Origin: Melioribacter roseus
Lineage (GTDB): Bacteria; Bacteroidota; Ignavibacteria; Ignavibacteriales; Melioribacteraceae
Assembly: GCA_020722085.1 (NCBI GenBank)
Contig: DYLN01000006.1
Span: 11,978-57,403 of the forward strand
Reading direction: 5' to 3'
Length of the DNA stretch: 45,426 bases
Shown: piece after piece, positions 10,215-39,410 of the stretch
Position numbering within the stretch: the first letter of the stretch is position 1
How the letters are laid out: every line of letters starts with the position of its first letter
Notes under the pieces: model-generated
Databases searched by the model: none
Told to the model about the DNA's origin: nothing
What the model saw: only the letters and a program-made list of their open reading frames with translations
Program-made: the position numbers and the translations under genes

Positions 10215-12947
10215 TCAATAATAATAGCCGATAGTGAAATAAAAGAAAGTAGGCCCCCACACAATTGTGTTTTTGGGTAAAGTATTAGCTAAGTAAAAAC
10301 TCTTTCCTATTGAAAAATCCACCGGACCAATGGGAGTATCGAAAGAAAGAGCCGTGCCTATTCCATGTCGTAAATCTTTCAGACGAATTTGCACTCTTTC
10401 ATCCCATATCGAGCCCAGATCATAGCGGGCTTTTATATACGTATCAAAGAAAATTTTTGTAGGAAGTTTTAATCTATATTCTAACGAAGAAATAAAAATC
10501 TGTCTGCCCCTAAATTCATTATCCCGGAATCCGTAAAATGAGGATTGACCACCGAATGAAAATTGCTCGGAAAGGGGAAGGGTGTTATCTGCAAAACCTG
10601 CAGCAATACGGGCATCAAAAACATTACTTTCATTAATGTTGAAATAGCTCTTGTAATCAAGATAAGCTTTGGTATAACCAATGTCGCCGCCAAATGCCGC
10701 TTGCGCAGTTTCGTAATATGCTTTTAACAGTGAACCGCTTGCGGGATACGGATATTCATTTTGTGTATCAATTGATAATGTTGCTCTTAGACTGGCAATA
10801 TCTACTTTGCCGGTTACGCCGGTGTAATTATATTTACTCTTAATTTGATCTCTCTGGTACTTTGCTTCAATAATCAGATTGCCGAGTTTTTGAACCTGGG
10901 TACCGATTCCAAACGAGCCGCCGTAATAAATTTGTCTGTACTCGCCAGTTTTAGATCTTGAAAAACGATTAGGTGCACTTACCGAGTCGTTTTTGTAAAC
11001 ATTCACATCATTAAACTCATAAAACGCTCTCAGTTTGTAAGTGAAGTACGAATCGAATATGCGGTTTGCTTTGTGTTCAAGAATATAAGAGCGGTTTCTT
11101 AAACCGCCGAAGATAATTGCCCCAAGCTCGGTACCAGTACCGAAAAGATTTTCGTCGCGGATATCGAGCGACAACTGTGTTTGATTCTCGTTATCGATTC
11201 TCATCCCAAAACGAAGAACACTTGAAGGTTTTTCATCTACGTCAATCGTCAAAATATTTTTGCCGTTTTTTTTAGCAACTAGAAGCTCTATATCGTCGAA
11301 TAAATTTGTGCTTGTTAAGTTTATTAATCCCTGCTCTGCCGCAGAGTATTTGAAAAAGTCACCCTCCCGCAGTTTAAAATCCCGTGTAATAATCTGCGGC
11401 TTGGTTTTATACAGCCCTTTAAGAACCACTTCTGAAATCATTCCTTCGGTTAAATCAATTGTAAGCAAGTTTGTTTGGGGATTGAAATTTATTTTATCTA
11501 TCCTTGCCAGGGAATATCCTGCTTTTTTGTAACTGCTTAAAATTTCCAGTGCAGCCTGCAGTACCCGGTTTGAATTAAAAGGTTTGTTCAATAATTGAAG
11601 GGTATACCCTTCAATTTCGTCATAAGGAAAAAGCGAAACGCCGTTGATCTCTATTTTATTTACGGAAGGATTTTTTTTCTCCTCAAGTCTTATAGCCGAA
11701 TAGCCATTCTTCTGAATAATCTTAGCCGATAGGTACTCATAATCTCCGGTTTCAAACAAACGGTTTAAGTCGAATAAAAGTTGATAACTGCTTACAGAAT
11801 CATGCCCGGCATACTTTTCAAAAAAATTTATTTCGTCTTCGGAAGGATTTTCAGGAAGAACAGGATTATGGATAAAAAATTCTTTTTCGTCAATCTTTTT
11901 TTCAAATTCTTCTTTTATTTTTTTCTTGATTAACGCCGCTGCAGAATCTGCTTTAATATAGCCGCTGTTAATTAGGTCTTTTATATTGCTGAAATCAGTA
12001 TTTTTTCTATCGTCAAGACGAGGAGTAATAACCACATCTGCCATTTCAAGCTGCTGTTCATTGAGAATTTTCATCGGTATGCTTACAAGCTGATCAGCAA
12101 TTATCCAGGGATATTTCAATTCGGAACTTGTGTAAAGAGGACTGGGCGTATTGCAGGCAATTACTATATCGCAGCCGTCGTCCTTCAGCGGTTTTACAGG
12201 AATATTTTCAACCAAGCCGCCGTCCACAAGCATGAGAGAATCTTTCTTTACAGGAGGAAGAAGAAACGTTACACTGGAACTTGCACGCATGGCTAAACTT
12301 AGAGAGCCGCTGCTTAGCAAAACTTCATTGCCGGTAATTAAATCTGTACTGACTGCACGAAATTTATAGAGCAAACTATCGAATGACGAATCTGTCGAAA
12401 GCGGTGCATTTAACGTAACCAAGGTCAAAAAGTTTGCTACGCGCTGGCCTGTTGTTAACGATTTGGGAATAACAAGATTGAATCCGTCAAGTCTAAAAGT
12501 AAGGAGTGCTTTATCTTCGGTAACCTTTTGGTCGATGAATAATTGATTTCTATCTGTCTGTTGAGTTGAAAAGAATTCATTCCAGTTCGTTGCATTTACA
12601 ATTGAGTCAATGTCGTAAATAGTATAACCCGAACAAAAAAGTCCACCCACAATACTACCCATACTCGTACCGGTAACCTCGTCAATAGGTATATGATTTT
12701 CTAAAAGGGCTTTTAAAATTCCGATTTGGGAAAGCGACCTTGCGCCGCCGCCGCTTAAAGCTATTCCAATTTTGGGCTGATAAGAAGAAACTTTTTTAGT
12801 AAGTCCAAAAGGTAGATTTTCAGTTTGAAGTTTTAATGAAAGAACTTTTGTTTGCGCTGTGCATAATGCTTGAAAAGTAAAAATAAATATTAACACTCTT
12901 CTAAAATATGTACACATAGCGCAAACAAAAATGTTAAGTGAACTCAT
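10215..12947 (-). CDS. Patatin-like phospholipase fused to POTRA/outer-membrane barrel (PlpD-type)
   Basis: A 910-residue protein. The start at 12947 has AGGAAA seven bases upstream. A hydrophobic export signal ends ...ALCTAQ. The patatin domain (~58-330) shows GIALSGGGARSLSQIG (oxyanion loop, with Ser where Gly is usual after GGGAR), the nucleophile elbow GTSMGSIVGG (Ser95) and LVDGGLVENIPV (catalytic Asp ~242). Next come one or two POTRA-like modules (VNKIEINGVSLF; ISEVVLKGLYKTKPQIITRDFKLREGDFF). The Omp85/BamA-like barrel fills ~570-910, with FSFGGQSSFYGFRDNEFRG and a terminal aromatic FTIGYYY. Proteins of this layout are self-displayed lipases (type Vd, as PlpD). Substrate specificity is not evident. 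It is preceded by GC-rich repeats and is probably transcribed alone. Confidence 0.92.
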   Translation of the reverse strand: MSSLNIFVCAMCTYFRRVLIFIFTFQALCTAQTKVLSLKLQTENLPFGLTKKVSSYQPKIGIALSGGGARSLSQIGILKALLENHIPIDEVTGTSMGSIVGGLFCSGYTIYDIDSIVNATNWNEFFSTQQTDRNQLFIDQKVTEDKALLTFRLDGFNLVIPKSLTTGQRVANFLTLVTLNAPLSTDSSFDSLLYKFRAVSTDLITGNEVLLSSGSLSLAMRASSSVTFLLPPVKKDSLMLVDGGLVENIPVKPLKDDGCDIVIACNTPSPLYTSSELKYPWIIADQLVSIPMKILNEQQLEMADVVITPRLDDRKNTDFSNIKDLINSGYIKADSAAALIKKKIKEEFEKKIDEKEFFIHNPVLPENPSEDEINFFEKYAGHDSVSSYQLLFDLNRLFETGDYEYLSAKIIQKNGYSAIRLEEKKNPSVNKIEINGVSLFPYDEIEGYTLQLLNKPFNSNRVLQAALEILSSYKKAGYSLARIDKINFNPQTNLLTIDLTEGMISEVVLKGLYKTKPQIITRDFKLREGDFFKYSAAEQGLINLTSTNLFDDIELLVAKKNGKNILTIDVDEKPSSVLRFGMRIDNENQTQLSLDIRDENLFGTGTELGAIIFGGLRNRSYILEHKANRIFDSYFTYKLRAFYEFNDVNVYKNDSVSAPNRFSRSKTGEYRQIYYGGSFGIGTQVQKLGNLIIEAKYQRDQIKSKYNYTGVTGKVDIASLRATLSIDTQNEYPYPASGSLLKAYYETAQAAFGGDIGYTKAYLDYKSYFNINESNVFDARIAAGFADNTLPLSEQFSFGGQSSFYGFRDNEFRGRQIFISSLEYRLKLPTKIFFDTYIKARYDLGSIWDERVQIRLKDLRHGIGTALSFDTPIGPVDFSIGKSFYLANTLPKNTIVWGPTFFYFTIGYYY

Positions 12948-13286: not shown

Positions 13287-15152
13287 TTATCTTTTTTTAT
13301 AAGCAGATTTTTTCTGTGCATGCGCTTGCTTCTCAGCCGCTTCCATCATTCTTGCCATAAATCCGCTTTTTTTCTTTTTAGGATCTTTTACCGGAACTAG
13401 CTCACCGTCAGTTTTGGAATGATTAACAAAATATTGCTGAATAATAGAAAGCAAATTGAACATGAGATAATATATGTTAAGTCCAGAAGGAAAACCCATA
13501 AAAAGCGCCGTAAACATAATCGGCATAACATAAACAAGGGCTTTTTGTGAAGGATCTTTCGTGCTCATCTTCTGCTGAATAAACATCGTAACTCCGAGAA
13601 GCAGTGCTGTCCCGCTGATTATATCCACTCCGAAAATCGGAATCTTAAACGGCAGTCTATAAATAACATCAGGCGAAGCCAGATCGTGAATCCATAAGAA
13701 AAACGGTTTTTGCCTGATTTCAATTGTTACTTTAAATAAACTCCACAGAGCGATTAAAATTGGCATCTGCAGCAACATCGGCAGGCATCCGCCCATTGGA
13801 TTTATTCCATAGGTCGAATATAATTTCATTGTTTCTTTTTGAATGCGCTGCTGATCGTCTTTATATTTCTCTTTTATTTCTGCTATCTTTGGCTGCAAAA
13901 GCTGCATCTTTTTCATCGACTTGTAACTTTGTTTTGTAAGCGGATGCAGCGCAAGTTTTATTAGAATAGAGAAGACAATTATTACCAATCCGTAATTTGG
14001 AATAAAGCTGTGAAGAAATTTAAATAAAGGAAGAAAAATATATTCTGAAATAGGTCTAATAATAAAAGTTAATCCGAGAAAACTTCCAAAATCAAAAATA
14101 GATTGAAAATTTTGATTGTATGATTTAAGTATGTCATAATCTATCGGTCCGAGATAAAGCAGAAAAGAATTTTTCTGGAAAGCAAGATTCTTAAAAGGAA
14201 TTTTCAAACTTGCACTGTAGATTTCCCTGGAGCCTTCGCCTATTGTTAAATGTTTACCTTCAATATAAGCTCCGCCTTCCTCACTTGGATTTTTAGGCTC
14301 AAGAATCATCGCAAAATATTTACTCTTTATTGCAACCCAATCAACTTTTCCGTTAAGATCCCTTGTAATAGGCTCATTAGGAGATTTAGCATCGATAGAC
14401 AACAGTTCGCCGCCGGAAAACACACTTGCATCAGAATATGCAGCTTCATCTACGGAATTTTTTTCAGTGAAATTAACCCCGTTAGACCAGACTACATCGT
14501 ATCTAAAACTGCTGATTACATCCTGCATATTTTTAAGTTCAATATCAACATTGGAAGCGTAGTTGTCTGCATAAAATGTAAAGTGCTTTATTACAACGCT
14601 GTTATTCCGGGATGTGTAAGTAAAGTTGATACTTAATGAATCGTTATTCTTAATTCTGTAATAATAATTTGTTTTATCGGGATTGAAATCCAGTACAGCG
14701 GTGTTTACCAGTTTTCCTTCTTTTGTTACGAATATGATATTAAAGTCACCGCCTTCTACAGAATTAATCAACTGAACGTGACGGTTATAGAAATCCGTTG
14801 TATCGAACTCATTATAATACCATGTATTATATTCTTTCAGGTAATATTTTCTTATACGGGCACCTTTTGAGGTAAGCTCAATTTTGGCAAGATCCGTTTC
14901 AATGGTAATTACTTTCTCCGGTATCTCTCCCGCTTTGAATTCAGATGTATCTTTTACAGTTGCAGCAATCTTGCCGGACTGTATCTGCTTCGATGTTTTC
15001 AACGTATCTTTCAGATTTACGGTATCAGAGGCAACTTTCGTAGTATCTGTTTGTTCCGGAAGCTGCTGTGGTGGTTTTGGAGAATTAAAATAAAGCCAAA
15101 TTACAAGAATGATTCCAATAAGAGTAAAAGCAATTACAGTTTGTTTATCCAT
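13287..15152 (-). CDS. yidC: Membrane protein insertase YidC
   Basis: A 621-residue protein of the YidC/Oxa1 family. TM1 is at ~6-25 (VIAFTLIGIILVIWLYF), the large periplasmic P1 domain at ~80-345, and the conserved insertase core follows (LHSFIPNYGLVIIVFSILIK, ALHPLTKQSYKSMKKMQLLQ, STYGINPMGGCLPMLLQMPI). The tail is Lys-rich (KDPKKKKSGF; KKSAYKKR), as in many YidCs that bind ribosomes. The groove arginine of E. coli is a lysine here (LIKLALHPLT), which is usual in Bacteroidota. It inserts and folds inner-membrane proteins with or without SecYEG. The frame starts 33 bp after yidD with GGAAA before the ATG, as last gene of rpmH-rnpA-yidD-yidC. Confidence 0.97.
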   Translation of the reverse strand: MDKQTVIAFTLIGIILVIWLYFNSPKPPQQLPEQTDTTKVASDTVNLKDTLKTSKQIQSGKIAATVKDTSEFKAGEIPEKVITIETDLAKIELTSKGARIRKYYLKEYNTWYYNEFDTTDFYNRHVQLINSVEGGDFNIIFVTKEGKLVNTAVLDFNPDKTNYYYRIKNNDSLSINFTYTSRNNSVVIKHFTFYADNYASNVDIELKNMQDVISSFRYDVVWSNGVNFTEKNSVDEAAYSDASVFSGGELLSIDAKSPNEPITRDLNGKVDWVAIKSKYFAMILEPKNPSEEGGAYIEGKHLTIGEGSREIYSASLKIPFKNLAFQKNSFLLYLGPIDYDILKSYNQNFQSIFDFGSFLGLTFIIRPISEYIFLPLFKFLHSFIPNYGLVIIVFSILIKLALHPLTKQSYKSMKKMQLLQPKIAEIKEKYKDDQQRIQKETMKLYSTYGINPMGGCLPMLLQMPILIALWSLFKVTIEIRQKPFFLWIHDLASPDVIYRLPFKIPIFGVDIISGTALLLGVTMFIQQKMSTKDPSQKALVYVMPIMFTALFMGFPSGLNIYYLMFNLLSIIQQYFVNHSKTDGELVPVKDPKKKKSGFMARMMEAAEKQAHAQKKSAYKKR

Positions 15153-15185
15153 TAAAATTTTCCGATTTAGTAGACTTTAGCTGAA

Positions 15186-15395
15186 TTATTCAAGGGGATC
15201 ATAACCGCCTTTATTAAATGGGTTACACCTCAAAACTCTCCATGCTGCTTTCACCCCTCCTTTAACCACACCGTATTTCTGAAACGCTTGAACTGCATAC
15301 TCAGAACATGTAGGATAAAACCTGCAAGAGGGAGGAAACAATGGAGATATTAATTTCTGATAAAGCTTAATGAGCCATATAAACAAATACTTCAT
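15186..15395 (-). CDS. yidD: Membrane protein insertion efficiency factor YidD
   Basis: A 69-residue protein covering the whole family: an amphipathic N-terminal helix ([17 protein letters not shown]), then the conserved cysteines in [14 protein letters not shown] and the third in [13 protein letters not shown]. It assists YidC-dependent insertion at the inner membrane. The ATG follows the rnpA stop (TAG) by a single base, so translation is coupled to rnpA. Confidence 0.97.
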
Positions 15396-15396
15396 G

Positions 15397-15819
15397 CTAT
15401 AAACGACTTCTTATCTTTTTCATCAGTTCAACTACATCCGGCAAAACATCAGCGAGTGAAATTTTTTTGTTGTTTTTTTGATTAATCTTATTCGGTAAAA
15501 AGGCAACATATAGTAAAATATTCTTTTCTTCGGCACACGAAACCAAAATATCTTTATTCAATCTGTATGATTCTTTCAACAATCTTTTTAACCGGTTTCT
15601 CCACACTGCATTACCAGCTTTTTTAGATACACCAAACCCAGCTTTGACACTCCCCCCTGAAACAGACGGAACCGGTTGAGCCGGAGTAACTTTATCTGCA
15701 AAGAACAAAGCCTTTATTTTGAAATTATCTGAAATCTCAACTTTTCCGGCTTTATACAATAATTCAAAATCTTTGGTGTTTTTGATTCTTTCCTTTGAGG
15801 AAAGACTATGCTTTTTCAA
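15397..15819 (-). CDS. rnpA: Ribonuclease P protein component
   Basis: A 140-residue basic protein. Family features: an N-terminal [14 protein letters not shown] segment, [27 protein letters not shown] carrying the RNR signature that binds pre-tRNA and P RNA, and a C-terminal helix [11 protein letters not shown]. It is slightly longer than usual, with a [12 protein letters not shown] loop before the core. It starts with TTG directly after the TAA of rpmH (TAATTG), so expression depends on rpmH translation. With the RNA subunit it matures tRNA 5' ends. Confidence 0.95.
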
Positions 15820-16582: not shown

Positions 16583-19500
16583 CTATTTCGTTAAAATCAT
16601 CTTCTTCGTGATGTTTACATTTTGTCCTGAGAGTCTGTAGATATAAATGCCCGATGCGAAGTTCGATGCATTGAATATAACAGTATGGAGACCACGCTGC
16701 AATTGACCCTCCATTAGAACAGCTACTTTCTGACCGATTATGTTGTATACCGTCAACGTGTATTCTCCCGCAACAGGTATTGCAAAGCGGATTGTTGTTG
16801 TCGGATTGAACGGATTTGGATAGTTCTGATTAAGCTCGAACTTAGTAGGCATCTCCTCGGTTTTATCACTTACAGCAGTAGTTGAGTTTACCGATGCCAT
16901 CATAAACATCTGACCTGCTTTGGTTCCGGCATAGACATTACCGTCATTAGGATTAACTACCAGTGAGCTTACACCAAAACCATTCATGCCGAGCGAAGTC
17001 CATGTAGCACCCATATCGCTTGATGAATATACGCCGCTTGCCCATGAACTTACATAAATATTATTACTTCCGTCAACAGATATTGAATATATAAACTGAG
17101 CATTAAGGTTGTTTGATTTAGTCCAGGTAGTTCCGCCGTCCTGCGAAATATAAAGTCCGTCTCCGTATGTACCGGCAAGTAAAACATTGGTTGATGTCGA
17201 AGCCAGTGCCCACACGAAGTTGTAACTGATATTTAATTGAGTCCATGCAGAACCGTTATATTTGAATACTCCTCCGCCAAGCGTAGCAGCAAACACCTGT
17301 GAACTTGGTGTTACAGTAAGTGCCTGAATAGTCAAATTGTAACCTAAACCAGAATTTATTGCTGTCCATGTAACACCAAGATCTGCAGATACATAAACTC
17401 CAGCACCATAAGTTCCGGCATATAAATTACCGGAATTATCTGCTGTAACAGCATGAACATCAATTCCACTGAATCCTATGAGTGTCCACTCTGAGCCGTT
17501 AAACCTGTACAAGCCCTGCTCTGTTGCAGCAAAGATGTACGAACCAACAGCTTTAAGTGACCAGATGAAACCAACATGTATATCAGAATTAATGACTGTC
17601 CACGTATGTCCGCTGTCGGATGATTTATAGATTTTACCGCCCCATGTGCCGGCATAAATATTTCCGTTTGCATCGTAGGTGATGGCGTAAACAATTTCAT
17701 CGGAAGTGAATGAACTTACCTGCTGCCATTTATTGTTGTCACCATTTCCGCCGCTGCCATTATTATTACCGGTTGTAGGTGTAATTGTAATGGATGCACT
17801 TGCACTGTTATTATCCGGATTAGGATCTTCGGTTAGCGATCCAGTAATTCTTGCAATGTTCACTATCTCTTTATCCGAGGGAATATTTCCTATAAACAGT
17901 GCATAATTAAATTGTCCCGGTCCCGTCAATGATTTACATATCATTTGACCGTTCTGGACACCGCTTACAAAATTAACTGCTGCAAACGGTGCAAGAATTG
18001 ATCCTCTAAAATCTATTCCCTGTATAGTAATATTTGTAGCTTGGTAGAAATTAAACAGAATATTTTGATTTGTACTGCCGCTTACACTCATACCGCCGCT
18101 TATTGAAACAGTTGTACCGTCTACATTAACAAGTGCAACCGAACCGCCGGGTACATTAATATGAATATTATTTGCACCGGATAAATCGGAACCGGAAACA
18201 CTAAATACATTCAAGAAAGGATCAGTACCTGTAAGTGACAACCCACCATATTGATAATTAACAGTGCCGTTTGTTGTATACGCAGCTAATGAAGTAGAAA
18301 GGTTTTCTAAGTATACTTTTGCTGCGGCAAAATTAATTGGGCTGTCCTGTCTGAGTGTACCTCCGGTTATACTTACGGAAGGCTGAGGTAAGTTTGTGCT
18401 GTTTCCGTAAACTACATTACCATTATATACTGCACCGCTGGTATAGGTAAGATTACGTCCGACTATCAATACATCCCCACTATTCGGGGGCAGTTGATCG
18501 CCAATACTGTAATTTGCAAGGTTCGCATCTCTTCCTACAGCTACTTTACCTTGAGTATCAGCGGACGGCTGTGTAGCATCTTCAATTACAAATAAGTTAA
18601 AATCCTTCGCTACACCAAGGTCAAATACGCTGCTGCTTATTTCTTCACAGTCAATTTTTACAGTAATTGTTAATGTTGCATAAGCGCTGCTTGCCAAATT
18701 TCCAACCATCCACAATCCTGTGTTCGGATCATAGGTACCCTGAGATGCATTGCTTGATACATATTCTAATCCTGCGGGCAACAAATCGGTTACCTGGATG
18801 CTCTTTGCTTCATCGGGTCCATTATTAGTTACTTCTATTGTAAATGTTACGTTATCTCCGCATTGTGGATTGGAATTATTAACGGTTTTTTCCAATTGTA
18901 AATCTGCGTTTTTATCCTGAGGAGGTTCACAAACCCAAGGATACCAGTAGAGATCACGTCCTGCTCCGTTTTTAATCGGGTTACCATCGCAATCGAGCAC
19001 ATTAACGCCATAGTGAATTTCAACCACCTGGTCACTCGGTCTTATACCCGGCCAGAGAGCAGTTATTGTAAATGTAGTATCCTTTGTAATTTTTACGGTT
19101 GAATAATGTGTTGAATTATCAACACTGCCGTCATTGGGTTCTACTATCCTCCAGCTTGTCTGCAAATATGCAGTGCTTGGGTTAGGTGTCAGGTGAACCG
19201 TACCGTTTATAGTAATATTTTTTGAATCATATTCACAAATTGCAGAATCAGGACCCAGTTCAACCGACCAATCAGTAACACAGACTTCGCCGCATTCAAC
19301 TTGAACTGTGGTAGAAGATTGTGCCGTAACATTTGCGGAACCGTCTACCGGATGCCCCACAGCAGTAACAGTATTTACTAACTCACCACAATCATTCGCA
19401 TCCGGAGTGTACGTCATAGTAAATGTGGTTGACTGCCCGGGATCAAGAACATTAATGTGTTTTATTTTGTGATCGCCGTCTTTGTTAAGCATTTCATCGT

Positions 19501-22012
19501 AAACATCAACACCGCCGTGAAGCTGAACATCACCACAATTTTCAACTACAAAAGTATAAGTAATCATATCACCGGGACTTACTGAATTCGTGCTGGCAGA
19601 TTTTTCAATGGCAACACATGTCTTGTAAAAACCGAAATCGATAGTCAAGTCGTCATTACAATTCAAAGTGACTGATGCAGGGCTGCTGCCGGAAGCGTCG
19701 CTGTCTTTTGCGTTATCACTTCCCTGATTAACTTTTGTTGAATACCATTTTGTTTGAGCGCTGCTTGCAAGTACGCCGGAAGTAAAATTAGAAGCAGCAA
19801 CTCTTACTTTGTATGTGCCGTTATCAAGATTCGAAAATTCATAATAACCGTTTGAATCGGTTGTATCGGATGTTATTAAGTTATTGTTTGAATCAAGCAG
19901 TTCGACAACTACGCTGGGAATTCCGGGTTCACCTGCATCCTGAATGCCGTTGATGTTCGTATCGTGCCAAATGAAGTCGCCGATTTTGTTTTCACACGGT
20001 GAACATATTTCCGGTACAATCAAATTATCGAAATTCAGTTTGTTAGGAGAATTATGCATTCCAACTACTTCAATTTTACCAAATCCTGCTGTGCCAAACG
20101 CTGAGCTGCTGACAGTTGCTTCATAAATCATATCGAAAATCCAGTTCGGGTAGCTCGGATTAGCTGTATAATTATTGTCAGTAGAAGGAGAATTTGTTGT
20201 TAGTACATATCCATAATCATTAAAGTTTTTGCTTAGAGAGGTGTTTTGATAAAGAATATATGGAGAGTTACCCGATTTAATATAAGAGCCGTATCCGCTT
20301 GGTGTAGGTTTACCTCCTTCAATATAATCGATTACAAAGTCAAGAACGGGATTGTTATTGGCATCATATAATTTAAATTCAGCCTGATCACTGCTTTTCA
20401 ACTGGTTAAAAGTATGTCCGCCCGACCAGCCTATAGCACCGGTACCGTAGGTATTATCGTTTAATGATTTTTCCAGTTCTAATCTGAAATTAATATTCCC
20501 ATTTGAGAGGTAATTAGTATATAGTTTTGCTACCGGATAATTAACATGACTCTTGTTTGTTGCACAAAGGTCGGTTACAATTGTTTGAACAGTATCTACG
20601 CCGCAATCCAAATAACCGTTATCTGCAGTACCGTTATCAAAATTTTCGTTTATAGCGGTTGCAGCGTCGTTAACATCGCTGTAAGAGTAAGTTGTTAAAT
20701 CACCACTCAATACCTGATTTGCAATTGTTAAAAACTGATTAACAGTCATTCCAGCAAACGCACCACCGACAATAGAGAGGTCGCCGAGATTTGTTGAGTT
20801 AGTTCCAAGATAACCTGCAGCGTCAAACTGAACATTCAAAGTTAAAGCAACAACCTGTCCGGCAAGAACACCCGCACTTGTGGTTGTCGGATCTGTGTAA
20901 TTTGAAGTCAGCTTATAAGCTGTTCCGCCCTGCGGCAGAAAATTCTTCACCGCAGAAGCTGAAGTTAGAGTTAAAGTTTTGGTTCCGCCGACAGTTAAAC
21001 CAGCCGGGAAAACTGTTGAGAAATACATATCTCTCAATTTCCCCGGCGCACTGTTAGAAGGACTTCCCCACCCTCCTTGCGTAAAAGTTGTAAATCCTCT
21101 GGTATCGCAGTCTTGAGGAGTGTACCACTCAACAGTAGCTGTTACTTCCTTAGTATCAAACGAAGGGGTTGCAAGTACCAATTTTTGCTTGCCGTTGGGA
21201 TTTGTCTTGTGAACATATCTTGTTCCCTGAGGAATTTCAACATCTGCCTGAGCTTTAATAGTTGCGGTGCCAGTCCCGCTGTAAGTTAAAATTATTGGTC
21301 CGGCATGTCCGTTTGCATCCGTGGTAACAGTTGATGCACTCAATGTGCCAAGAGTAGTCGAGAGATGTACCTGCACGTTTGCTACCGGATTGCCGTCAAT
21401 ATCGGTTGCATACACATCAAACGATGCCGGATTTCCAGCAGGCCAGGATTGAGAAGGAGGAATAATTAACAACGTTTGAAGAAACTCGTGGTCGCCATAA
21501 TTAGAATTTGCATCGTTGATTACATCAAGTGCGCGCGATTTAATTGTATTGTCGGTAATAGTGTTCGCATCAACGCCATCGCTGAAATGCCAGATAGCCA
21601 GTTGAACAGCGGCGGCTTCTTTGTCGTTATCGGAGAGTTTACCCGAATAAGAAGTTTTATACGGATAATAATTATTCAATATGTAGGTAATCTCTGCTGG
21701 GGTCTGACTTTCATCCCAGTAGTCTTTATTGTATTCAAGAGAATGCTGAAGATCGATACAATAAAATTTTTCGGAATGTCCGTTCAACGTACCCTTGAAC
21801 GTTCCGGCAAATGAAGTCTGATTGTTATTGGTAAAAGGATTTTTGTAAGTCACACTCTTACCGTCTGCTGTTCCGGAAATTTTAGCAATGCTAGTATAGT
21901 CGGTGACTTCCTTAGCCCCGTTTTTGGTTTGTGCAAAAGTGAAGGTAGAAAATGCAATTAAAAAAACGGAGAACAGAACTAATCCAAACACGCAGTTCGA
22001 GAGGTGTTTCAT
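16583..22012 (-). CDS. Giant T9SS-secreted adhesin with N-terminal thioester domain
   Basis: A 1809-residue protein. A signal peptide ends ...FTFAQ. A thioester domain (~40-180) carries FYCIDL (Cys85) and AAVQLAIWHF (Gln137), the pair that forms an internal Cys-Gln thioester in Gram-positive adhesins. Next are a Big_1/invasin-like domain (~185-265), a long segment unassigned here, an SdrD-like B domain (~672-770, KIGDFIWHDTNINGIQDAGE), DUF11-type repeats (KSASTNSVSPGDMITYTF; ADLQLEKTVNNSNPQCGDNV), a choice-of-anchor-A domain (~1130-1370, GKVAVGRDANLANYSIGDQL), a sortilin/BNR-like propeller (~1425-1690, repeats of YAGT.....SSD.G.TWT) and a T9SS type A sorting domain (NQNYPNPFNPTTTIRFAIP, ~1720-1809). 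It should be surface-exposed and may attach covalently to amines on a target. AGGAG lies before the ATG. No neighbour shares its operon. Confidence 0.9.
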   Translation of the reverse strand: MKHLSNCVFGLVLFSVFLIAFSTFTFAQTKNGAKEVTDYTSIAKISGTADGKSVTYKNPFTNNNQTSFAGTFKGTLNGHSEKFYCIDLQHSLEYNKDYWDESQTPAEITYILNNYYPYKTSYSGKLSDNDKEAAAVQLAIWHFSDGVDANTITDNTIKSRALDVINDANSNYGDHEFLQTLLIIPPSQSWPAGNPASFDVYATDIDGNPVANVQVHLSTTLGTLSASTVTTDANGHAGPIILTYSGTGTATIKAQADVEIPQGTRYVHKTNPNGKQKLVLATPSFDTKEVTATVEWYTPQDCDTRGFTTFTQGGWGSPSNSAPGKLRDMYFSTVFPAGLTVGGTKTLTLTSASAVKNFLPQGGTAYKLTSNYTDPTTTSAGVLAGQVVALTLNVQFDAAGYLGTNSTNLGDLSIVGGAFAGMTVNQFLTIANQVLSGDLTTYSYSDVNDAATAINENFDNGTADNGYLDCGVDTVQTIVTDLCATNKSHVNYPVAKLYTNYLSNGNINFRLELEKSLNDNTYGTGAIGWSGGHTFNQLKSSDQAEFKLYDANNNPVLDFVIDYIEGGKPTPSGYGSYIKSGNSPYILYQNTSLSKNFNDYGYVLTTNSPSTDNNYTANPSYPNWIFDMIYEATVSSSAFGTAGFGKIEVVGMHNSPNKLNFDNLIVPEICSPCENKIGDFIWHDTNINGIQDAGEPGIPSVVVELLDSNNNLITSDTTDSNGYYEFSNLDNGTYKVRVAASNFTSGVLASSAQTKWYSTKVNQGSDNAKDSDASGSSPASVTLNCNDDLTIDFGFYKTCVAIEKSASTNSVSPGDMITYTFVVENCGDVQLHGGVDVYDEMLNKDGDHKIKHINVLDPGQSTTFTMTYTPDANDCGELVNTVTAVGHPVDGSANVTAQSSTTVQVECGEVCVTDWSVELGPDSAICEYDSKNITINGTVHLTPNPSTAYLQTSWRIVEPNDGSVDNSTHYSTVKITKDTTFTITALWPGIRPSDQVVEIHYGVNVLDCDGNPIKNGAGRDLYWYPWVCEPPQDKNADLQLEKTVNNSNPQCGDNVTFTIEVTNNGPDEAKSIQVTDLLPAGLEYVSSNASQGTYDPNTGLWMVGNLASSAYATLTITVKIDCEEISSSVFDLGVAKDFNLFVIEDATQPSADTQGKVAVGRDANLANYSIGDQLPPNSGDVLIVGRNLTYTSGAVYNGNVVYGNSTNLPQPSVSITGGTLRQDSPINFAAAKVYLENLSTSLAAYTTNGTVNYQYGGLSLTGTDPFLNVFSVSGSDLSGANNIHINVPGGSVALVNVDGTTVSISGGMSVSGSTNQNILFNFYQATNITIQGIDFRGSILAPFAAVNFVSGVQNGQMICKSLTGPGQFNYALFIGNIPSDKEIVNIARITGSLTEDPNPDNNSASASITITPTTGNNNGSGGNGDNNKWQQVSSFTSDEIVYAITYDANGNIYAGTWGGKIYKSSDSGHTWTVINSDIHVGFIWSLKAVGSYIFAATEQGLYRFNGSEWTLIGFSGIDVHAVTADNSGNLYAGTYGAGVYVSADLGVTWTAINSGLGYNLTIQALTVTPSSQVFAATLGGGVFKYNGSAWTQLNISYNFVWALASTSTNVLLAGTYGDGLYISQDGGTTWTKSNNLNAQFIYSISVDGSNNIYVSSWASGVYSSSDMGATWTSLGMNGFGVSSLVVNPNDGNVYAGTKAGQMFMMASVNSTTAVSDKTEEMPTKFELNQNYPNPFNPTTTIRFAIPVAGEYTLTVYNIIGQKVAVLMEGQLQRGLHTVIFNASNFASGIYIYRLSGQNVNITKKMILTK

Positions 22013-22308: not shown

Positions 22309-24396
22309 CTATTTATCTATTTTTATTTCAAAATCATTCCTTGAAAGTACTTTCCCTGTTCTATCGGAGAGAAAAACTTCAATTTTATGATTACCTTTTT
22401 GCAAGTCTTCAGGAAGATGAAACTCATTGTTTTCCCACGAAAAATATTTAACGGAATTCTTATCAATTTCACCGGTATTCATTTCGGCGATAGTCTTTCT
22501 ATCCAGAATCAATTTGAGTATGCATCCTGCAAATTTTTGATGAAGATCGTTAATTATCCAAAAACTTATTTGAAGCTTTTGTCCAGCAAAATAAGTATCA
22601 CGCATTACTTTTATGGAAACGTAGAGCGGCTGAAATGCTTTCTGAAGGGCAAAATAACCTTTTTTCTTTTGACCGTAATAATCTATTACCGACCAGGTAA
22701 TTGAACTCCAGCAATCGACAAACATAAATTGAAATAAGGCATTTACCTTTTTAAACTTTTCCCGCCGGTAAAAATCTATTGCGGTTTTTAAGAGTTCCGC
22801 TTGATAAGATTGTGAGTTTGAAACAAATTCATCTATACACTTTCCTTTATCGATTTTTGCAATGTGAAAAGTCTGCTCGTACTGAAAATTATGATATTTC
22901 CATTTAGCCCAATCCGGTTTGGAGATTTCCTCTTCCGATAAAAATTTTTTTAAAGAATCAACTGCGGGTAAAGCTTGTGCGCCAAACTCAGTTACCAGCG
23001 GTCCCATAGGACATGCTGCAAAGTGTTCTTTGCTACCCCAGTACCAGCCGTCATAAGGGTGTTCTTCGTAATTGGAGGCAAGTCGAATAATTCTGCTTTT
23101 GTCAACGCTAAGAACAGCATCATATAAAACCGGGTCGAGTGAATTTATTTGTTTCCCCGGTTCGTTGTGACAGCACCAAAAAGCAATCGAGGGATGGTTA
23201 TAGTTTTGTCTTACCATATCTTTGATTTGACGTGCAGCATTACGAGCAAAATTTTTAGAATCATCGTAAGTCCACTGCAGAGCAAAATCCTGCCAGATTA
23301 AAATTCCCTGTCTATCGCATTCATCATAAAATTCTTTTCTGTTTACATGCGCGTGTACACGCAGAATGTTAACGTTTGCTTTTTTAGCCCATTTGATTTG
23401 TTCGGAAATTTTTCGTGAATTTAATTCAGACAAAAACTGGGTTGGGATTATGTTTGTTCCCCGAAGGAACAATTTTTTCCTGTTCAAATAAAAAATTTTG
23501 TTTTCATCGAGCTTAACTTCTCTGATTCCGAACTGTGCTGAGAGTTCATTAATGATTTTTCCCTTAATATTTATCTCGTACAGATAAGGTCTGCCAGTAT
23601 CCCAGCTCCACCATAATTTGGGTTTGTCGATTTCAAAAGAAAAATTGAATGTGGATGATTTTCTTAACAGCCTAATTTTCTTATCAAACTTAAGCCTAAC
23701 TTTGCTGCCGCTTTCGTTCACTTCAATAGTTATTAAATCATTGACCGATTTTATCAGATGCGAAGTATATTCGGCTGTAAATTTTACAATTGCTTTTGAG
23801 AAGTCCCGATTTAATTTCGTATCGATACGAAAATTTGTAATGAAAACATCTCTTGCAGAAATTAAATTTACATCGTTCCAGATACCGCCGGTATTTTTAT
23901 CCTGTCCCTTTTCCGGGTCCCAGCCGCCGGGTCGGCAGTCGTGATGATTAAAAATTCCCTTGATTAATTTTTTCTTGTTTGGCCAGACGGCACCGGGTTC
24001 TTCAAAAGGCGAATTTACTTTAACGATCAAATCATTTTTCCCTTCCTCACGTACAGAATCCGACACATCAAAACTAAATTTCTGAAAATATCCTTCGTGA
24101 TGACCGATGTAATTGTCATTCAGCCACACATCACAAAAGTAATCCACACCATTGAATTCAAGAAGCTGCAGATTGTGACTATCCTTTTCAAAAATAAAAT
24201 TTTTGTAGAACCAGATTGAACCGCTGTAATTATCTAAACCGGCTAATTGCCAGTTTGCCGGAATTTTCATGAAAGGTAAATTTTCAGTCGAGAATTTTTT
24301 TTCTACTGAATTAAAATCCAGCCTGCCTTCGGGGTCAGTAATAAAATTCCATCTTCCGTCTAATGAAATATTTTTTACTTTGTTTTTCATCACCAT
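22309..24396 (-). CDS. GH2 family glycoside hydrolase (beta-mannosidase/galactosidase type)
   Basis: A 695-residue protein. The sugar-binding jelly-roll N-domain (LDGRWNFITDPEG, FNGVDYFCDVWLNDNYIGHH) spans ~8-190, an Ig-like domain ~195-310, and the TIM barrel begins at FLRGTNIIPTQF. The acid/base is in SIAFWCCHNEPG (Glu412) and the nucleophile in PLVTEFGAQALP (Glu470). A C-terminal beta domain ends it. There is no signal peptide, unlike every other hydrolase here, so it probably acts in the cytoplasm on imported oligosaccharides. The TEFGAQALP context resembles beta-mannosidase-like and exo-glucosaminidase GH2s more than LacZ, but substrate is uncertain. A second ATG two codons in is equally possible. 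A GC-rich repeat island separates it from the cluster upstream, so it may have its own promoter. Confidence 0.88.
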   Translation of the reverse strand: MVMKNKVKNISLDGRWNFITDPEGRLDFNSVEKKFSTENLPFMKIPANWQLAGLDNYSGSIWFYKNFIFEKDSHNLQLLEFNGVDYFCDVWLNDNYIGHHEGYFQKFSFDVSDSVREEGKNDLIVKVNSPFEEPGAVWPNKKKLIKGIFNHHDCRPGGWDPEKGQDKNTGGIWNDVNLISARDVFITNFRIDTKLNRDFSKAIVKFTAEYTSHLIKSVNDLITIEVNESGSKVRLKFDKKIRLLRKSSTFNFSFEIDKPKLWWSWDTGRPYLYEINIKGKIINELSAQFGIREVKLDENKIFYLNRKKLFLRGTNIIPTQFLSELNSRKISEQIKWAKKANVNILRVHAHVNRKEFYDECDRQGILIWQDFALQWTYDDSKNFARNAARQIKDMVRQNYNHPSIAFWCCHNEPGKQINSLDPVLYDAVLSVDKSRIIRLASNYEEHPYDGWYWGSKEHFAACPMGPLVTEFGAQALPAVDSLKKFLSEEEISKPDWAKWKYHNFQYEQTFHIAKIDKGKCIDEFVSNSQSYQAELLKTAIDFYRREKFKKVNALFQFMFVDCWSSITWSVIDYYGQKKKGYFALQKAFQPLYVSIKVMRDTYFAGQKLQISFWIINDLHQKFAGCILKLILDRKTIAEMNTGEIDKNSVKYFSWENNEFHLPEDLQKGNHKIEVFLSDRTGKVLSRNDFEIKIDK

Positions 24397-24445
24397 ATAA
24401 AGTAATCTTCAACTTCTTTGAGCTGACCTTGAAGTTTCAATCTTT

Positions 24446-24678
24446 GTAGGGGCGAGGTCTCCTCGCCCACATTTTTGTTATTACGTTCGTCCCATTATTC
24501 GGTCGGGTCGACAGACTAAGTAGGACTCCCGACAGGGTCCGTTCGACAGAATTCGCTCGCCTCGCTTCGCAGTCGGAGCGGGCTCTGCGGTTGAAAACCT
24601 CGTCGTATTTAGACGGGTCGGAGCGGGTCGGATTCTGTTGAATGACTGACGAGGAAGCCCCAACGCTACAGCCCCGCC
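24446..24678. repeat. GC-rich repeat island between GH2 and six-hairpin genes
   Basis: It opens with GTAGGGGCGAGG, a TCT loop and CCTCGCCC (perfect 8-bp stem at 24450-24457/24461-24468), almost the same as 777-800. It then carries TTCGGTCGGGTCGACAGAC, similar to the 13191-13215 repeat, several GGTCGGAGCGGGTC-type pieces, and ends GAGGAAGCCCCAACGCTACA. The ends read TGTAG...CTACA, as a bounded element would. The 323-bp gap holds no credible gene; the short open frame across it is low-complexity Arg/Pro-rich. Confidence 0.7.
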
Positions 24679-24719
24679 TTTTAACGTATTTACTGATTTA
24701 AATATACAATGATAGAACG

Positions 24720-27700
24720 TCAATAAAAAATTTCAAGACTAACGGGAGTCTTGCCGACATAAAACGAAATCGAATCCTCAGTAAAATTTTTTAATTCAAT
24801 TCCGTTTGCAGTTACTTTCTTCGGCATTTTCCTTCGGTTAAAGTTCTTTAAAATAACTTTCACATTCTCATTCTGATGAAGTACAACATCAACTTTATAT
24901 TTTTCATTTTCTTTCTTTACGAAATAAGAAATGTCGCCAAAATAAGATGGCAAATGTTCAATACTAATCCCCTCCGGCGAATCAATCCAATCTTGATAGA
25001 GACCGGCTCCAATAACAAGCGAAGTATCATATTCATTCTCGTAGAGAAACATTGTGCGCATCGAATTAATAAATTCCGAACTGACCCAAGTATGAGGCAT
25101 ATCGCCGATAAATTTGGGTGCCCGGTAATCTTTCCAAACAACCTCCGCCCATTGATTCCAGTTTTTCGGTCTTTGATCCAAAAAGAAAAAATTCATTTCG
25201 TCATGAGCGCGGTTTATTTCGTTCAATAAAATCATCGCGCCTATCGTTCTCAATTCATACGGAGTATAGTTAATCCAATCAGTTTCGTTCTTCTCTCTTT
25301 GCTTAAAAAATTTATAATATTTATCAAATGTGTTTTTAAGAAGTTTAGGAGGTAAGTTTTCTTTTTCATTGCAAGGATAAATTGCAATTGCTGTTGAGGT
25401 GGGATCAAAGTCACCCAATTCAGCAGAGCCCGGGATGTAATCTATCTTTTTGTATTTGACGGCAAGGTTAATAGAATTATAAAGATTCTTCCTGAATTCG
25501 TCTCTAATTTCTGCGAACTTTTTATGATAAGCATGCTCTTTAAGAGTGGAAGTAATTTCTACTGCATCGTTCAATCCTTTGAGTGCCCAAAAGTCATCCC
25601 AATAAGAATGCATCGGTTTGGCAGAATAGCCTTCATGGCTAATCGACTCGGGCAATAATCCGTATAAAGATCTTACGCTGTCACTTGTATTTTCTTTAAA
25701 ATAATTTGTTGATCTCAGTGCGATAAGATACTCAAGATATTCAACAGCTTTAACTATGTTATCAAATTTTGATCTTAAGAAGGTTGTATCCTTTGTAAAA
25801 TTAAAATACTGTTTTATCAAATAGATAAACTCACCGTTGCTGTCATTCTCATCAACCGGATCGGGACCTCTCCGGTCAACGACACAAGGAACTTTACCGT
25901 TGTCGAACAAAAATTTTGAATACCATTCGATAAAGTCTTTTACTTCTTTCGTCATCCCGTTTTTCAGTAAAGCTGAAGAAGTAAGTGCACCGTCTCTAAT
26001 CCACGAACGTTCGTACGATCTTGAACCGGGCTGAATTCCAGCATTATCCCGGTTTATTAATATATAAGCCAAATTAGACTTTAAAGAATTGATAAGCCAT
26101 TCTGCAGAGTGCGGAAGTTTGTATGTAACATTATTTAATTTTGCCGTCCAGTATTCAACTGTCTCATCAAAACTTTTCAACAAAGTTTTTTCTGTAAAAT
26201 CTTTCACGGGTTCTGAACCATGAAACGGTATGCACAATGCTGCGAACTTTTCTTCTCCGGCAGACAAATTAAATTTATATTTGAAAGTGCCAGAAGCAAA
26301 ACCGGTTGTATCTGTAATGTTTTTTGTGTTTGGAAGTTCATTTTCGGCAAGGTAATTTACAATCTCAGCATTATCAAAATTTGATGCACCGAAATCATCG
26401 GCATTTTTCATTGTACAGATAATTTTGTTGTTGTCTATTACAGCATAAGATTTTTTGTACTCAATTTTTTTGATTTTCGCTGCGCCGCCAACATCATTCA
26501 AAAATTGGTAATATGGATTTACTTGAAATGGTCTGACCGCGAGAAACAGATTCCCGGTTTTGTTTTCGGAAGAAATATTTTTCAGCCGATATGTTATAAA
26601 TAATTTCGAATCGCTGTTTGGCTTCCCTCCGGCAAACGCTTTTATTTCTAGTTTTAATTGTTCATTGCTCCAAATGACAGAAGGAATCGGCAGATAATTT
26701 TGTTCTAACGACTGCTTAATCTTAACATCATTACGGGTTATTAATTTCCCGCCGCAATAAATGAACGGTTCAATAGAAAATTTCTGCTTATCAACTTCTA
26801 TCATACCATCTTCATTGATCAATGCTTCTTTAGTATCTTTATCAACACCCACTACAGTCCAGTAAGAAGCTTCTTTATTAAAATAACGCGGGAAAAATCC
26901 ATGCGGAAAATCTTTTGACAAGTTTATAAAAAAATCGTTGTCGTTTTCCGAATATTCTGCCGGGAGCACTTCTATTTCGGCGATACCGAATCTGCCGAAT
27001 TTTTGTGTGAAATCTAATTTTAAATAATGTGCTTCCTGTTCTCTCAGAGAAATGTAATTTGAGTAATATGAACTCTTCTCAAATTCATAAACATTTTCCC
27101 AGTTTACCGAATCCGGCGAGGCTTTTATTCTGCACAAAACATCAAAGTTATCTTTTGACCAATTAATTTTTAATCCGCCGATTTCCCGGTTTGTTTTCAA
27201 GTCAATTAATATTTCCGCTTCAGAATTTTCAAAAGGATACCAGATCGTATTAGTGTCATCGTCAGATAAATATTTTTCTTCGGGTGTTTCAGGCAATGTT
27301 GATATTTGAGGCTGCGACGGATTTAAATTTACTTCCGGCAGTTCGGTAAAGTAAAACTCTTCAATATAAATTGTCCCTTTCCCGCCGTTATAAGAAGATA
27401 TAGTAAATTCAATTTTATCAATTTCGCGGAGTGAATGATCCTGAGCAGGGCCCCATGCAAAATTAATATGCTTCTTCTTAATGTTAACTTTTTGCCAGTT
27501 ATGAGGGAACTCAAAATTTCTTTGGTTCACCCACCAAACATTTTCGCCGCTTTTATCAAGCAGCTTAAATTCCAGATTGTTGTTCGGTGAATCCCCTTTA
27601 ATATAAAAAGAAAATTTATAATTAGGCGGCAGTTTAATGGGAAATACTTTTTGTATCCCGCCGTAGCCTGTTCCTTTTGTAAAATTATAATCAATTCTTA

Positions 27701-27884
27701 CTGCGCTGCCGTTGAGTCTTCTTACCGAAGATACTTTTAACGAAACTCCTTCGGAGGTTATTACCTTCCAATCGCTGACCGATTTAAAATCATCAATCTG
27801 TATGCTTTGTGAAAACGTATTCACAAATGTGAAGCAGATAAAAATCAGTATCAGTCCAATTATTTTGATATAATTTTTATTCAT
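24720..27884 (-). CDS. Secreted six-hairpin glycosidase-like protein with CBM11-like and discoidin domains
   Basis: A 1054-residue protein. Signal peptide to ...FVNTFSQ. A CBM11/CIA30-like beta domain lies at ~28-185 (IQIDDFKSVSDWKV; FSFYIKGDSPNNNLEFKL), then an F5/8-type discoidin domain at ~205-310 (EILIDLKTNREIGGLKINWS; FGRFGIAEIEVLP). A beta-sandwich (~330-590) precedes an (alpha/alpha)6-type domain (~595-960) with SYERSWIRDGALTSSALL, DSNGEFIYLIKQYF and SYWDDFWALKGL. This layout is seen in glucoamylase/debranching-like enzymes, but I cannot assign a GH number. It follows the sulfatase remnant by 3 bp and is last gene of the GH3/GH144 cluster. It is probably periplasmic or surface-exposed, as it lacks a T9SS tail. 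Confidence 0.75.
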   Translation of the reverse strand: MNKNYIKIIGLILIFICFTFVNTFSQSIQIDDFKSVSDWKVITSEGVSLKVSSVRRLNGSAVRIDYNFTKGTGYGGIQKVFPIKLPPNYKFSFYIKGDSPNNNLEFKLLDKSGENVWWVNQRNFEFPHNWQKVNIKKKHINFAWGPAQDHSLREIDKIEFTISSYNGGKGTIYIEEFYFTELPEVNLNPSQPQISTLPETPEEKYLSDDDTNTIWYPFENSEAEILIDLKTNREIGGLKINWSKDNFDVLCRIKASPDSVNWENVYEFEKSSYYSNYISLREQEAHYLKLDFTQKFGRFGIAEIEVLPAEYSENDNDFFINLSKDFPHGFFPRYFNKEASYWTVVGVDKDTKEALINEDGMIEVDKQKFSIEPFIYCGGKLITRNDVKIKQSLEQNYLPIPSVIWSNEQLKLEIKAFAGGKPNSDSKLFITYRLKNISSENKTGNLFLAVRPFQVNPYYQFLNDVGGAAKIKKIEYKKSYAVIDNNKIICTMKNADDFGASNFDNAEIVNYLAENELPNTKNITDTTGFASGTFKYKFNLSAGEEKFAALCIPFHGSEPVKDFTEKTLLKSFDETVEYWTAKLNNVTYKLPHSAEWLINSLKSNLAYILINRDNAGIQPGSRSYERSWIRDGALTSSALLKNGMTKEVKDFIEWYSKFLFDNGKVPCVVDRRGPDPVDENDSNGEFIYLIKQYFNFTKDTTFLRSKFDNIVKAVEYLEYLIALRSTNYFKENTSDSVRSLYGLLPESISHEGYSAKPMHSYWDDFWALKGLNDAVEITSTLKEHAYHKKFAEIRDEFRKNLYNSINLAVKYKKIDYIPGSAELGDFDPTSTAIAIYPCNEKENLPPKLLKNTFDKYYKFFKQREKNETDWINYTPYELRTIGAMILLNEINRAHDEMNFFFLDQRPKNWNQWAEVVWKDYRAPKFIGDMPHTWVSSEFINSMRTMFLYENEYDTSLVIGAGLYQDWIDSPEGISIEHLPSYFGDISYFVKKENEKYKVDVVLHQNENVKVILKNFNRRKMPKKVTANGIELKNFTEDSISFYVGKTPVSLEIFY

Positions 27885-27887
27885 TGT

Positions 27888-28388
27888 TCAATCCGTAAAA
27901 ATTACATTCCCTTTTCTCTTGTTTGCCTGCCAGTTCGTGGTTCTTTTCACAAGTATTTTATTGGCATTGTTTGCATTCAGCCAGTTGAAAACTTGCTTTG
28001 TCATTTTCTCGACCAGATCTTTATACTCGGGAAGGTCAATAAGGTTAAACATTTCATTAGGATCATTTTTAATGTCGTAAAGTTCATCGGTGTCCCAGAT
28101 ACCGTAATAAGTCATGTATTTATATTGAACACCTTCTTTTGCCATCTTATCCATTGCAGGTGTTTTCAGAAATGACAGCTTTCCCGTGAATCCCATAAAA
28201 TCATACCGGTGATCATCACTTAAAATAAAAATGATGTTTGGTTTTGCAGTGCCTTTGGAAGAAGGAAGCAGTTCCATTTGTGAAAACGATTTTTCTTTCA
28301 CCCCACCAAATGTATTCAGTAAAGGAACAGCGGCTGAACTTATTCCAAGCTTTTCAATAAATTTTCTCCGTGTGTAAAGCTGTTTCAT
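27888..28388 (-). pseudogene. Sulfatase remnant: internal deletion, frame kept
   Basis: The likely start is 28388, since GGAGGAA lies just before that ATG; this gives 166 residues. The N-terminus has a Tat-like leader (TRRKFIEKLGISSAAVPLL) and the first sulfatase strand with its metal aspartates (PNIIFILSDDHRYDFMGFTG), then LKTPAMDKMAKEGV. At about residue 87 (near 28128) it jumps to QYKYMTYYGIWDTDELYDIK and NDPNEMFNLID, which is normally near the C-terminus of a ~450-520-residue S1 sulfatase. The formylglycine motif CxPxR and the middle ~300 residues are missing, so it cannot be an active sulfatase. The reading frame is intact across the join. It is spaced tightly (14 bp and 3 bp) between GH3 and the six-hairpin gene. 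Confidence 0.85.
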
Positions 28389-28402
28389 TTGTTCCTCCAT
28401 TC

Positions 28403-30652: not shown

Positions 30653-30685
30653 GTGCGTATATAAAAAGTAAAAGTGCATAAAAAT

Positions 30686-32035: not shown

Positions 32036-32096
32036 GAGATCTCTTAAATTATTATTAACCTTGTTGTATAAAAAAACAAAGAGAATATTTTTAATA

Positions 32097-34514: not shown

Positions 34515-34621
34515 TAATCTTTACCATGTAATAGTAATATCGCACTAAATTCTTTTCTATCATCCGGCGTTTTTACCGAAGTCCGATACACATGTTTATT
34601 AAAATGAATTAGATTTACAAA

Positions 34622-39391: not shown

Positions 39392-39410
39392 ATTGATCTC
39401 GTGAGCTTTC

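Follow-up and report, generated by a model that had tools for sequence, protein, structure and literature searches.

A thioester-domain protein with a type IX secretion sorting domain in Melioribacter roseus, predicted to be a Gram-negative counterpart of TIE adhesins

Is the reactive thioester domain, known mainly from surface proteins of Gram-positive bacteria, also used by a bacterium with an outer membrane? The question is raised by a gene in a stretch of 45,426 nucleotides from Melioribacter roseus (contig DYLN01000006.1), hereafter called the window. The gene occupies positions 16583–22012 of the minus strand, as do all the features of the protein given below, with its ATG at 22012; frame 1 of the plus strand is interrupted by many stops across the same interval. 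It encodes 1809 residues arranged as signal peptide, thioester domain, stalk, propeller-like region and a tail typical of the type IX secretion system (T9SS). A sequence-only reading had proposed that this chain joins a thioester domain to a T9SS sorting domain, and this was confirmed: Pfam detected TED at residues 83–165 (21518–21766; 51.9 bits, cut-off 22) and Por_Secre_tail in the type A sorting domain at residues 1731–1806 (16595–16822; 38 bits, cut-off 27; 40.3 bits in NCBIfam), and T9SS genes were found in the same genome. Taken together, the protein is probably a covalently cross-linked surface adhesin and a Gram-negative counterpart of the TIE adhesins, its bonds, display and adhesion being predicted.

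The N-terminal module was modelled with AlphaFold2. A probable signal peptide, judged by eye, covers residues 1–27 (21932–22012) with cleavage before Gln28, and models and structural matches delimit a complete class II thioester domain module at residues 28–301 (21110–21931). The cysteine of FYCIDL and the glutamine of AAVQLAIWHF, both pointed out in the sequence-only reading, are indeed Cys85 (21758–21760) and Gln137 (21602–21604) of the 1809-residue frame, and YCID at residues 84–87 agrees with the motif [YFL]C-hydrophobic-hydrophilic. TQXA_dom of NCBIfam scored 29.7 bits, slightly below its cut-off of 30.4. The alignments for structure prediction were drawn from 80 rows, i.e. the window and 79 named loci: A3 contained 63 rows chosen by hand and A4 contained 77, without L064, L077 and L117, whose frames overrun the 5' end of their loci. 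The model of residues 28–187 reached a mean predicted local distance difference test score (pLDDT) of 86.3 and that of residues 28–301 a mean of 93.7. Both place Gln137 in the same helix (model residue 110, helix 102–118), and the beta-barrel and three-helix fold of TED was recovered in the models and in the structural matches.

Class II thioester domains are defined by a beta-sandwich inserted between helix 3 and strand P (PMC6194298). In the longer model, strands 154–233 are found at this very place, after the third helix (128–147) and before the last short strands (237–253). The Big_1/MG4-like stretch at residues 193–258 (21239–21436; Big_1 33.5 bits, slightly below the Pfam cut-off of 34.9) is best read, from profile, model and structural matches, as the class II insert within the thioester domain; a separate Big_1 module after that domain was set aside on the class II definition and the structural matches. 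Structural comparison of the N-terminal region, which had been proposed as a check, was carried out: for residues 28–187, thioester-domain proteins occupied ranks 1–13 (Z 14.2 to 7.2), the next match having Z 3.7. Twelve of these are thioester-domain proteins by title or as Cpa, and 5dcq in the same ranks is FNE, which we take to be a thioester-domain protein and counted as such. For residues 28–301, the top solved matches were the class II thioester domains 6fwv (Z 16.2, 240 aligned residues, root-mean-square deviation (rmsd) 9.1) and 6fwy (Z 14.1, 233 aligned residues, rmsd 7.9), with a Foldseek E-value of 3.7e-11. As to the slipknot topology of class II, in which a P-Q hairpin returns Gln to Cys, the whole-module rmsd of the structural comparison ranged from 7.9 to 9.8. 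In a PDB sequence search with the whole module, the Big-like insert attracted matches to intimin and invasin, and thioester proteins were for this reason matched only weakly (5dcq, E 0.0021).

Within this module, a thioester is very probably formed between Cys85 and Gln276 (21185–21187, in KQKLVLATP), a predicted pairing that spacing, fold, homology and a natural experiment indicate as the most likely one. Two glutamines have been distinguished in thioester domains: that of the helix motif TQxxPhiW, which mutagenesis showed not to be essential (PMC4450167), and that of a late strand, which makes the bond (PMC4450167, PMC6194298). Gln276 (model residue 249) is located two residues ahead of a short strand (251–253) that comes after the beta-sandwich and another short strand (237–241). 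The surrounding KQKLV was counted as the late-strand motif PhiQ-zeta-Phi-Phi, with Lys replacing the hydrophobic residue before Gln; this motif has been called weak (PMC4450167). From Cys85 to Gln276 the spacing is 191 residues, compared with 195 in BaTIE, 204 in EfmTIE86 and 171 in SaTIE (PMC6194298) and with 188 in TIEpLS20 (PMC8092201), a value which was reproduced on the pLS20 sequence. A Streptomyces protein ending in LAETG (L160) aligns at Cys85, Gln137 and Gln276. Gln276 lies outside the Pfam TED match and was absent from both peptide patterns used to find the named loci; in one of the first alignments it was invariant (77/77).

The sorting domain at the other end of the chain has its machinery in the genome. 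A search for PorU, SprA and PorV was positive for all three: PorU over its full length at 970 bits, PorV, adjoining PorU, at 323 bits, and SprA at 155 bits; sorting domain and T9SS genes together characterise a type A substrate. Of the 63 sorting-domain matches in the genome, 62 exceed the cut-off, as do 13 matches to the PorV family. Export of the protein by T9SS is predicted from the sequence with high confidence.

A search of other Ignavibacteria for the same combination, likewise proposed beforehand, showed that it recurs. TED was detected in 77 of the 391 genomes sampled across the class, the window's own included, and in 33 of 395 across the phylum, 31 of which are the window's own or come from its family or order. 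When the window's genome and 37 relatives were scanned, 22 of the 38 were positive, the window's genome with a single TED, and 14 named control genomes gave no match. Proteins were compared in three overlapping sets (26 relatives, 79 named loci and 36 array modules), giving 142 proteins with the window included and 121 distinct modules. Two peptide patterns, one including the helix glutamine, had yielded 127 loci, and the named loci were taken from the best 80 of these. Their titles are mostly those of Ignavibacteria, Ignavibacteriales, Melioribacter and kin; where titles of named relatives hinted at a source it was groundwater, mines or fen, and many give none. Tails were counted by a letter pattern together with a list of truncated frames: of the 121 distinct modules, 107 are followed by a T9SS tail, 13 belong to frames interrupted by a contig end, and one has another C-terminus. 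All 25 complete proteins of the relatives have a T9SS-type tail, one more being cut by its contig, and Pfam, applied to these and the window, found TED in 27/27 and Por_Secre_tail in 26/27. Among the 66 whole frames in the named loci, 63 pass the tail pattern, L066 and L109 have a tail with Phe for Tyr, and L093 has none. Since the pairing of TED and T9SS tail recurs in related genomes, it is not the result of chance or of an assembly join; it is real, common in the lineage and a lineage trait.

The natural experiment is contained in the 121 distinct modules. At the positions of the cysteine, the helix glutamine and the strand glutamine, 113 modules read C-Q-Q, six S-Q-P, one F-Q-P and one C-Q-K, so that Cys85 is matched by Cys in 114/121, Gln276 by Gln in 113/121 and Gln137 by Gln in 121/121. 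The cysteine is lost in seven modules (Ser in six, Phe in one); in 7/7 of them the Gln276 position is Pro and the helix glutamine is kept. The six Ser forms share five new cysteines, two of which align with residues 82 and 275, near the lost pair. Neither position has a cysteine in any of the 106 Cys-bearing alignment rows (some of them duplicates), and the Phe form has none of the five. From the location of the new cysteines, the two strands seem to be in contact, and a disulphide may have replaced the thioester.

One family of the class has clusters of short thioester-T9SS genes of about 470 residues (L161–L164). In L161 (1501–17543), seven such genes follow on one strand of a 17.7-kb stretch. 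The clusters mix modules keeping the Cys-Gln pair with members of the clade that lost it. Fourteen regions were picked non-randomly, for several matches or long frames, from the 77 TED-positive genomes of the class, and 35/35 complete module-bearing frames in these regions have the T9SS tail. In eight short members (458–478 residues) of the named loci, only TED and the T9SS tail exceed the Pfam cut-offs, and the Pfam scan gave no pAdhesive match at E up to 0.01; all eight keep the thioester pair.

Further along the chain, the stalk comprises an SdrD_B domain (residues 676–795, 19628–19987; Pfam 97.8 bits), a DUF7507 domain (residues 800–893, 19334–19615; Pfam) and a DUF11 domain (118.5 bits in Pfam). 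CLIPPER and CLIPPER_2 are the new names of DUF11 and DUF7507, respectively; many of these domains are predicted to hold isopeptide bonds, a solved CLIPPER domain has its site at Lys715, Asp748 and Asn806, and the bond is missing from some DUF11 domains (PMC12617251). For DUF7507, an isopeptide Lys804-Asn880 with Asp839 is predicted; of the 13 members with Lys804, 12 have the whole triad, and 14 of 27 are gapped at position 804. The first part of DUF11 (residues 1037–1122, 18647–18904; profile positions 1–86 of 114) contains Lys1042 and Asp1076, with a spacing of 34 compared with 33 in the solved CLIPPER domain. A choice-of-anchor-A/pAdhesive_15 domain comes next (residues 1132–1374, 17891–18619; 203.4 bits in Pfam, 204.3 bits in NCBIfam), and then a fragment with Asn1385 (residues 1379–1408, 17789–17878; profile positions 86–114), which matches the last 29 positions of DUF11 only (E 0.00034, 21.3 bits, below the cut-off of 24.6). 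The equivalent fragment of a same-genus relative likewise matches the last DUF11 positions and no other family. Because of this fragment behind it, the choice-of-anchor-A domain looks inserted in the CLIPPER domain; in Cpa, another domain is inserted within an isopeptide domain (PMC6194298). Among 27 members, the window included, Lys1042 is kept in 27/27, Asp1076 in 26/27 and Asn1385 in 26/27 with one gap, and the predicted Lys1042-Asn1385 isopeptide looks to close a loop around the inserted adhesive domain. The protein shows the TIE arrangement of an N-terminal, distal thioester domain on a predicted isopeptide stalk, the latter as judged from conserved Lys-Asp-Asn only. A propeller-like repeat region at about residues 1438–1660 (17033–17701) was recognised from short or weak Pfam repeat matches and an NF045728 match below cut-off. 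Between the thioester module and SdrD_B (residues about 303–670, 20003–21106), none of the 25 Pfam families shown has its best stretch; a TQGGWG stretch in this region is conserved in the family consensus.

Several findings weigh against a reactive Cys85-Gln276 thioester in a class II fold. The rmsd of the superpositions on 6fwv and 6fwy is high and the Foldseek TM-scores are below 0.5, for which reason the two lobes seem differently angled. Intimin and other Ig-type chains, matching the insert alone, took ranks 3–5 (Z 12.2–12.4), the class II SaTIE (6fx6) came at rank 21 only (Z 10.8), and hhalign against the pLS20 thioester domain gave no support (probability 0.5). The array modules had been selected with a profile covering all three positions (Cys, helix Gln and strand Gln). 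The seven Cys-less modules form a single clade (support 100/99) and therefore represent one loss event, and in the C-Q-K module (L163, 946–2343) Lys stands in place of Gln276 although the Cys and the helix Gln are retained. Finally, an exchange of thioester for cysteines with the fold kept, as judged from sequence, would also fit a structural cross-link role.

The last point belongs to an explanation in which the thioester forms but only stiffens the domain or is a relic, adhesion being non-covalent through the choice-of-anchor-A domain or the propeller. It would account for the clade of seven paralogs that lost Cys and Gln, six of which gained cysteines beside both positions like a substitute cross-link, and it agrees with the presence of pAdhesive_15 in 26/27 relatives, window included. 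Cys and Gln are nevertheless retained in 113 of the 121 distinct modules, also in the eight short members without a pAdhesive match, and characterised thioesters react with amines and appear not to be stabilising (PMC4450167). We regard this explanation as unlikely, and consider covalent adhesion, by analogy with the characterised proteins, a reasonably likely function.

A second alternative concerns the fate of the protein after export. Some T9SS substrates are released, not attached (PMC10202324), and after PorU processing the protein might likewise enter the medium and act there as a soluble cross-linker or as part of the matrix, instead of as an adhesin bound to the cell. This is improbable, as the stalk is long and includes two domains with predicted isopeptides, which hints at a head displayed at a distance from a surface; PorU is present, though its presence fits anchoring and release alike. 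Anchoring to lipopolysaccharide rather than release is likely. There is no LPXTG at the C-terminus, where the T9SS sorting domain stands instead, and the protein, which shares head domain and logic with TIE proteins, is not classed as an ordinary TIE protein. Two related proteins have other C-termini. L093 (4129–5796), on a contig labelled Anaerolineae, has the same module and ends in a hydrophobic stretch and a basic tail without T9SS domain; in the tree it falls within the Ignavibacteria rows, and it may be a binning error. L153, from a more distant member of the phylum, is a thioester protein of 228 residues with a PEP-CTERM tail and a weak TED match (23.7 bits). Both genomes gave an exosortase match and no SprA match; the window genome has SprA and gave no exosortase match. 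The anchor type thus seems to go with the secretion machine present, in these two cases only. As a side observation, a PorV-family gene (191 bits) is located in the window at 38375–39466.

A bond between Cys85 and Gln137, as originally put forward, is very improbable. Both residues were invariant in the first alignments; for the 79 named loci, part of the conservation of the helix glutamine stems from the search itself, since this residue belonged to one of the two patterns, whereas Gln276 was in neither. Gln137 fits the TQxxPhiW motif, whose glutamine is not needed (PMC4450167), and lies in a helix in the models; it remains in 7/7 Cys-less modules, in which the Gln276 position is Pro. On these grounds it was ruled out as the bond partner. 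A fold with Cys85 and Gln137 far apart had been named as refuting the thioester, which aims at the wrong pair because the partner is most likely Gln276. An assembly or binning artefact, with a Gram-positive fragment joined to an Ignavibacteria contig, has a negligible probability. The window genome is indeed a draft of 338 contigs, but the relatives rule such an artefact out: 26 of them can be aligned over the entire chain, including a member of the same genus with 82% identity (L034), and the record of Stygiobacter electus strain 09-Me, not labelled as a metagenome-assembled genome, has two such genes.

For a covalent adhesin, the following course is proposed. The Sec signal would lead the protein to the periplasm, where residues 28–301 would take up the class II thioester fold and a bond would be made between Cys85 and Gln276 with loss of ammonia. 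T9SS substrates reportedly fold in the periplasm ahead of transport (PMC10202324), which would require the thioester to be made in that compartment and to stay intact in it. Through its type A C-terminal domain the protein would be passed to SprA/PorV, and PorU, as in known T9SS biology, would remove this domain and join the new C-terminus to lipopolysaccharide or release the protein. The thioester domain would then stand at the distal end of the SdrD_B and CLIPPER stalk with its predicted isopeptides (Lys804-Asn880 and Lys1042-Asn1385), and on contact an amine of a matrix protein, a particle or a cell nearby would open the thioester to give a lasting amide bond, as in Gram-positive relatives. 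Whether the Ignavibacteria possess a full Gram-negative covalent adhesion system of this kind appears to us an even call: thioester harpoons on isopeptide-locked stalks would travel, folded and loaded, through the periplasm and SprA and be fixed to lipopolysaccharide by PorU, one family having multiplied short versions into clusters of up to seven genes in which one clade would have swapped the thioester for cysteine pairs, leaving inert siblings beside live ones.

The closest known systems are the Gram-positive class II TIE proteins BaTIE, EfmTIE86, SaTIE and TIEpLS20. They resemble the window protein in the N-terminal thioester domain with beta-sandwich insert, the Cys-Gln spacing and the predicted isopeptide stalk domains, and both kinds end in a sorting signal for a transpeptidase, except TIEpLS20, which is without one (PMC8092201). 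They differ in that this signal is LPXTG for sortase there and a T9SS type A domain for SprA/PorU here, and in that the stalk isopeptide domains are of CnaB type there and of CLIPPER type here; the window protein has in addition a choice-of-anchor-A domain, a propeller-like region and an outer membrane to cross. The Streptomyces LAETG protein (L160), named 'Cys-Gln thioester bond-forming surface protein', can be aligned with the window protein over most of the thioester module (hhalign E 7.1e-13, 27% identity); in contrast, it has 461 residues, is sortase anchored (NF041528, 58.2 bits) and gave no T9SS tail match. Flavobacterium SprB and RemA are also T9SS-dependent surface adhesins, as is predicted here, and RemA has a type A C-terminal domain as well (PMC10202324), but both serve gliding. 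The fibrillar adhesin B9T28_05395 of Acinetobacter shares the Gram-negative background and the CLIPPER isopeptide stalk domains; it differs by a CshA_NR2-like head and an OmpA-like anchor, and the available part of the report describes no thioester domain in it (PMC12617251).

The pairing of thioester domain and T9SS had been proposed as new, and the literature agrees with this as far as open-licence PMC papers go, where no paper combining a thioester domain with T9SS or type IX secretion was found, an absence that is no proof; thioester papers mentioning Ignavibacteria in the same collection were judged unrelated by title and abstract start. In the available text of a T9SS review, the only 'thioester' is the intermediate between PorU and its substrate (PMC10202324). 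Isopeptide domains co-occurring with Por_secre_tail have already been reported (PMC12617251). An early survey of thioester domains had matches in Gram-positive bacteria only (PMC4450167), a later one for a class II protein had 99.6% of its matches in Firmicutes (PMC8092201), and a large survey of fibrillar adhesins was restricted to Firmicutes and Actinobacteria (PMC9210967). What is new here is the joining of a known reactive domain to a known secretion route, with the same logic as in Gram-positive TIE proteins. The thioester domain turns out to be common also in one class of bacteria with an outer membrane, where it is coupled to another machinery for secretion and anchoring. Provided that the bond is real, the thioester has to cross the periplasm in reactive form without firing, by which the control of thioester access, an open question (PMC6194298), becomes testable, and the gene clusters hold natural thioester-minus siblings usable as controls. 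The present data contain no pointer to a host target, and they suggest that covalent thioester binding need not be a matter of pathogen and host.

Regarding the surroundings of the gene, a cluster of glycosidase-type genes stands beside it (22309–36418; GH2, GH3, GH43, two glucoamylase-like, one with T9SS tail). Six of the seven genes had no match in 105 related loci, with flanks of limited length, and there is therefore no sign that the adhesin belongs to this cluster; a link between the two was dropped as unsupported by these loci. The seventh gene (805 residues, with T9SS tail) was matched in 78 of the 105, which may be due to its T9SS tail. On the other side, genes for YidC and the RNase P protein (13287–15819) adjoin the adhesin gene, and rnpA was matched in 13 of the 105 related loci, a count in which some genomes appear twice; this points to an old neighbourhood shared among relatives. 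Next to yidC, at 10215–12947, lies a gene for a patatin-like phospholipase fused to POTRA and an Omp85 barrel.

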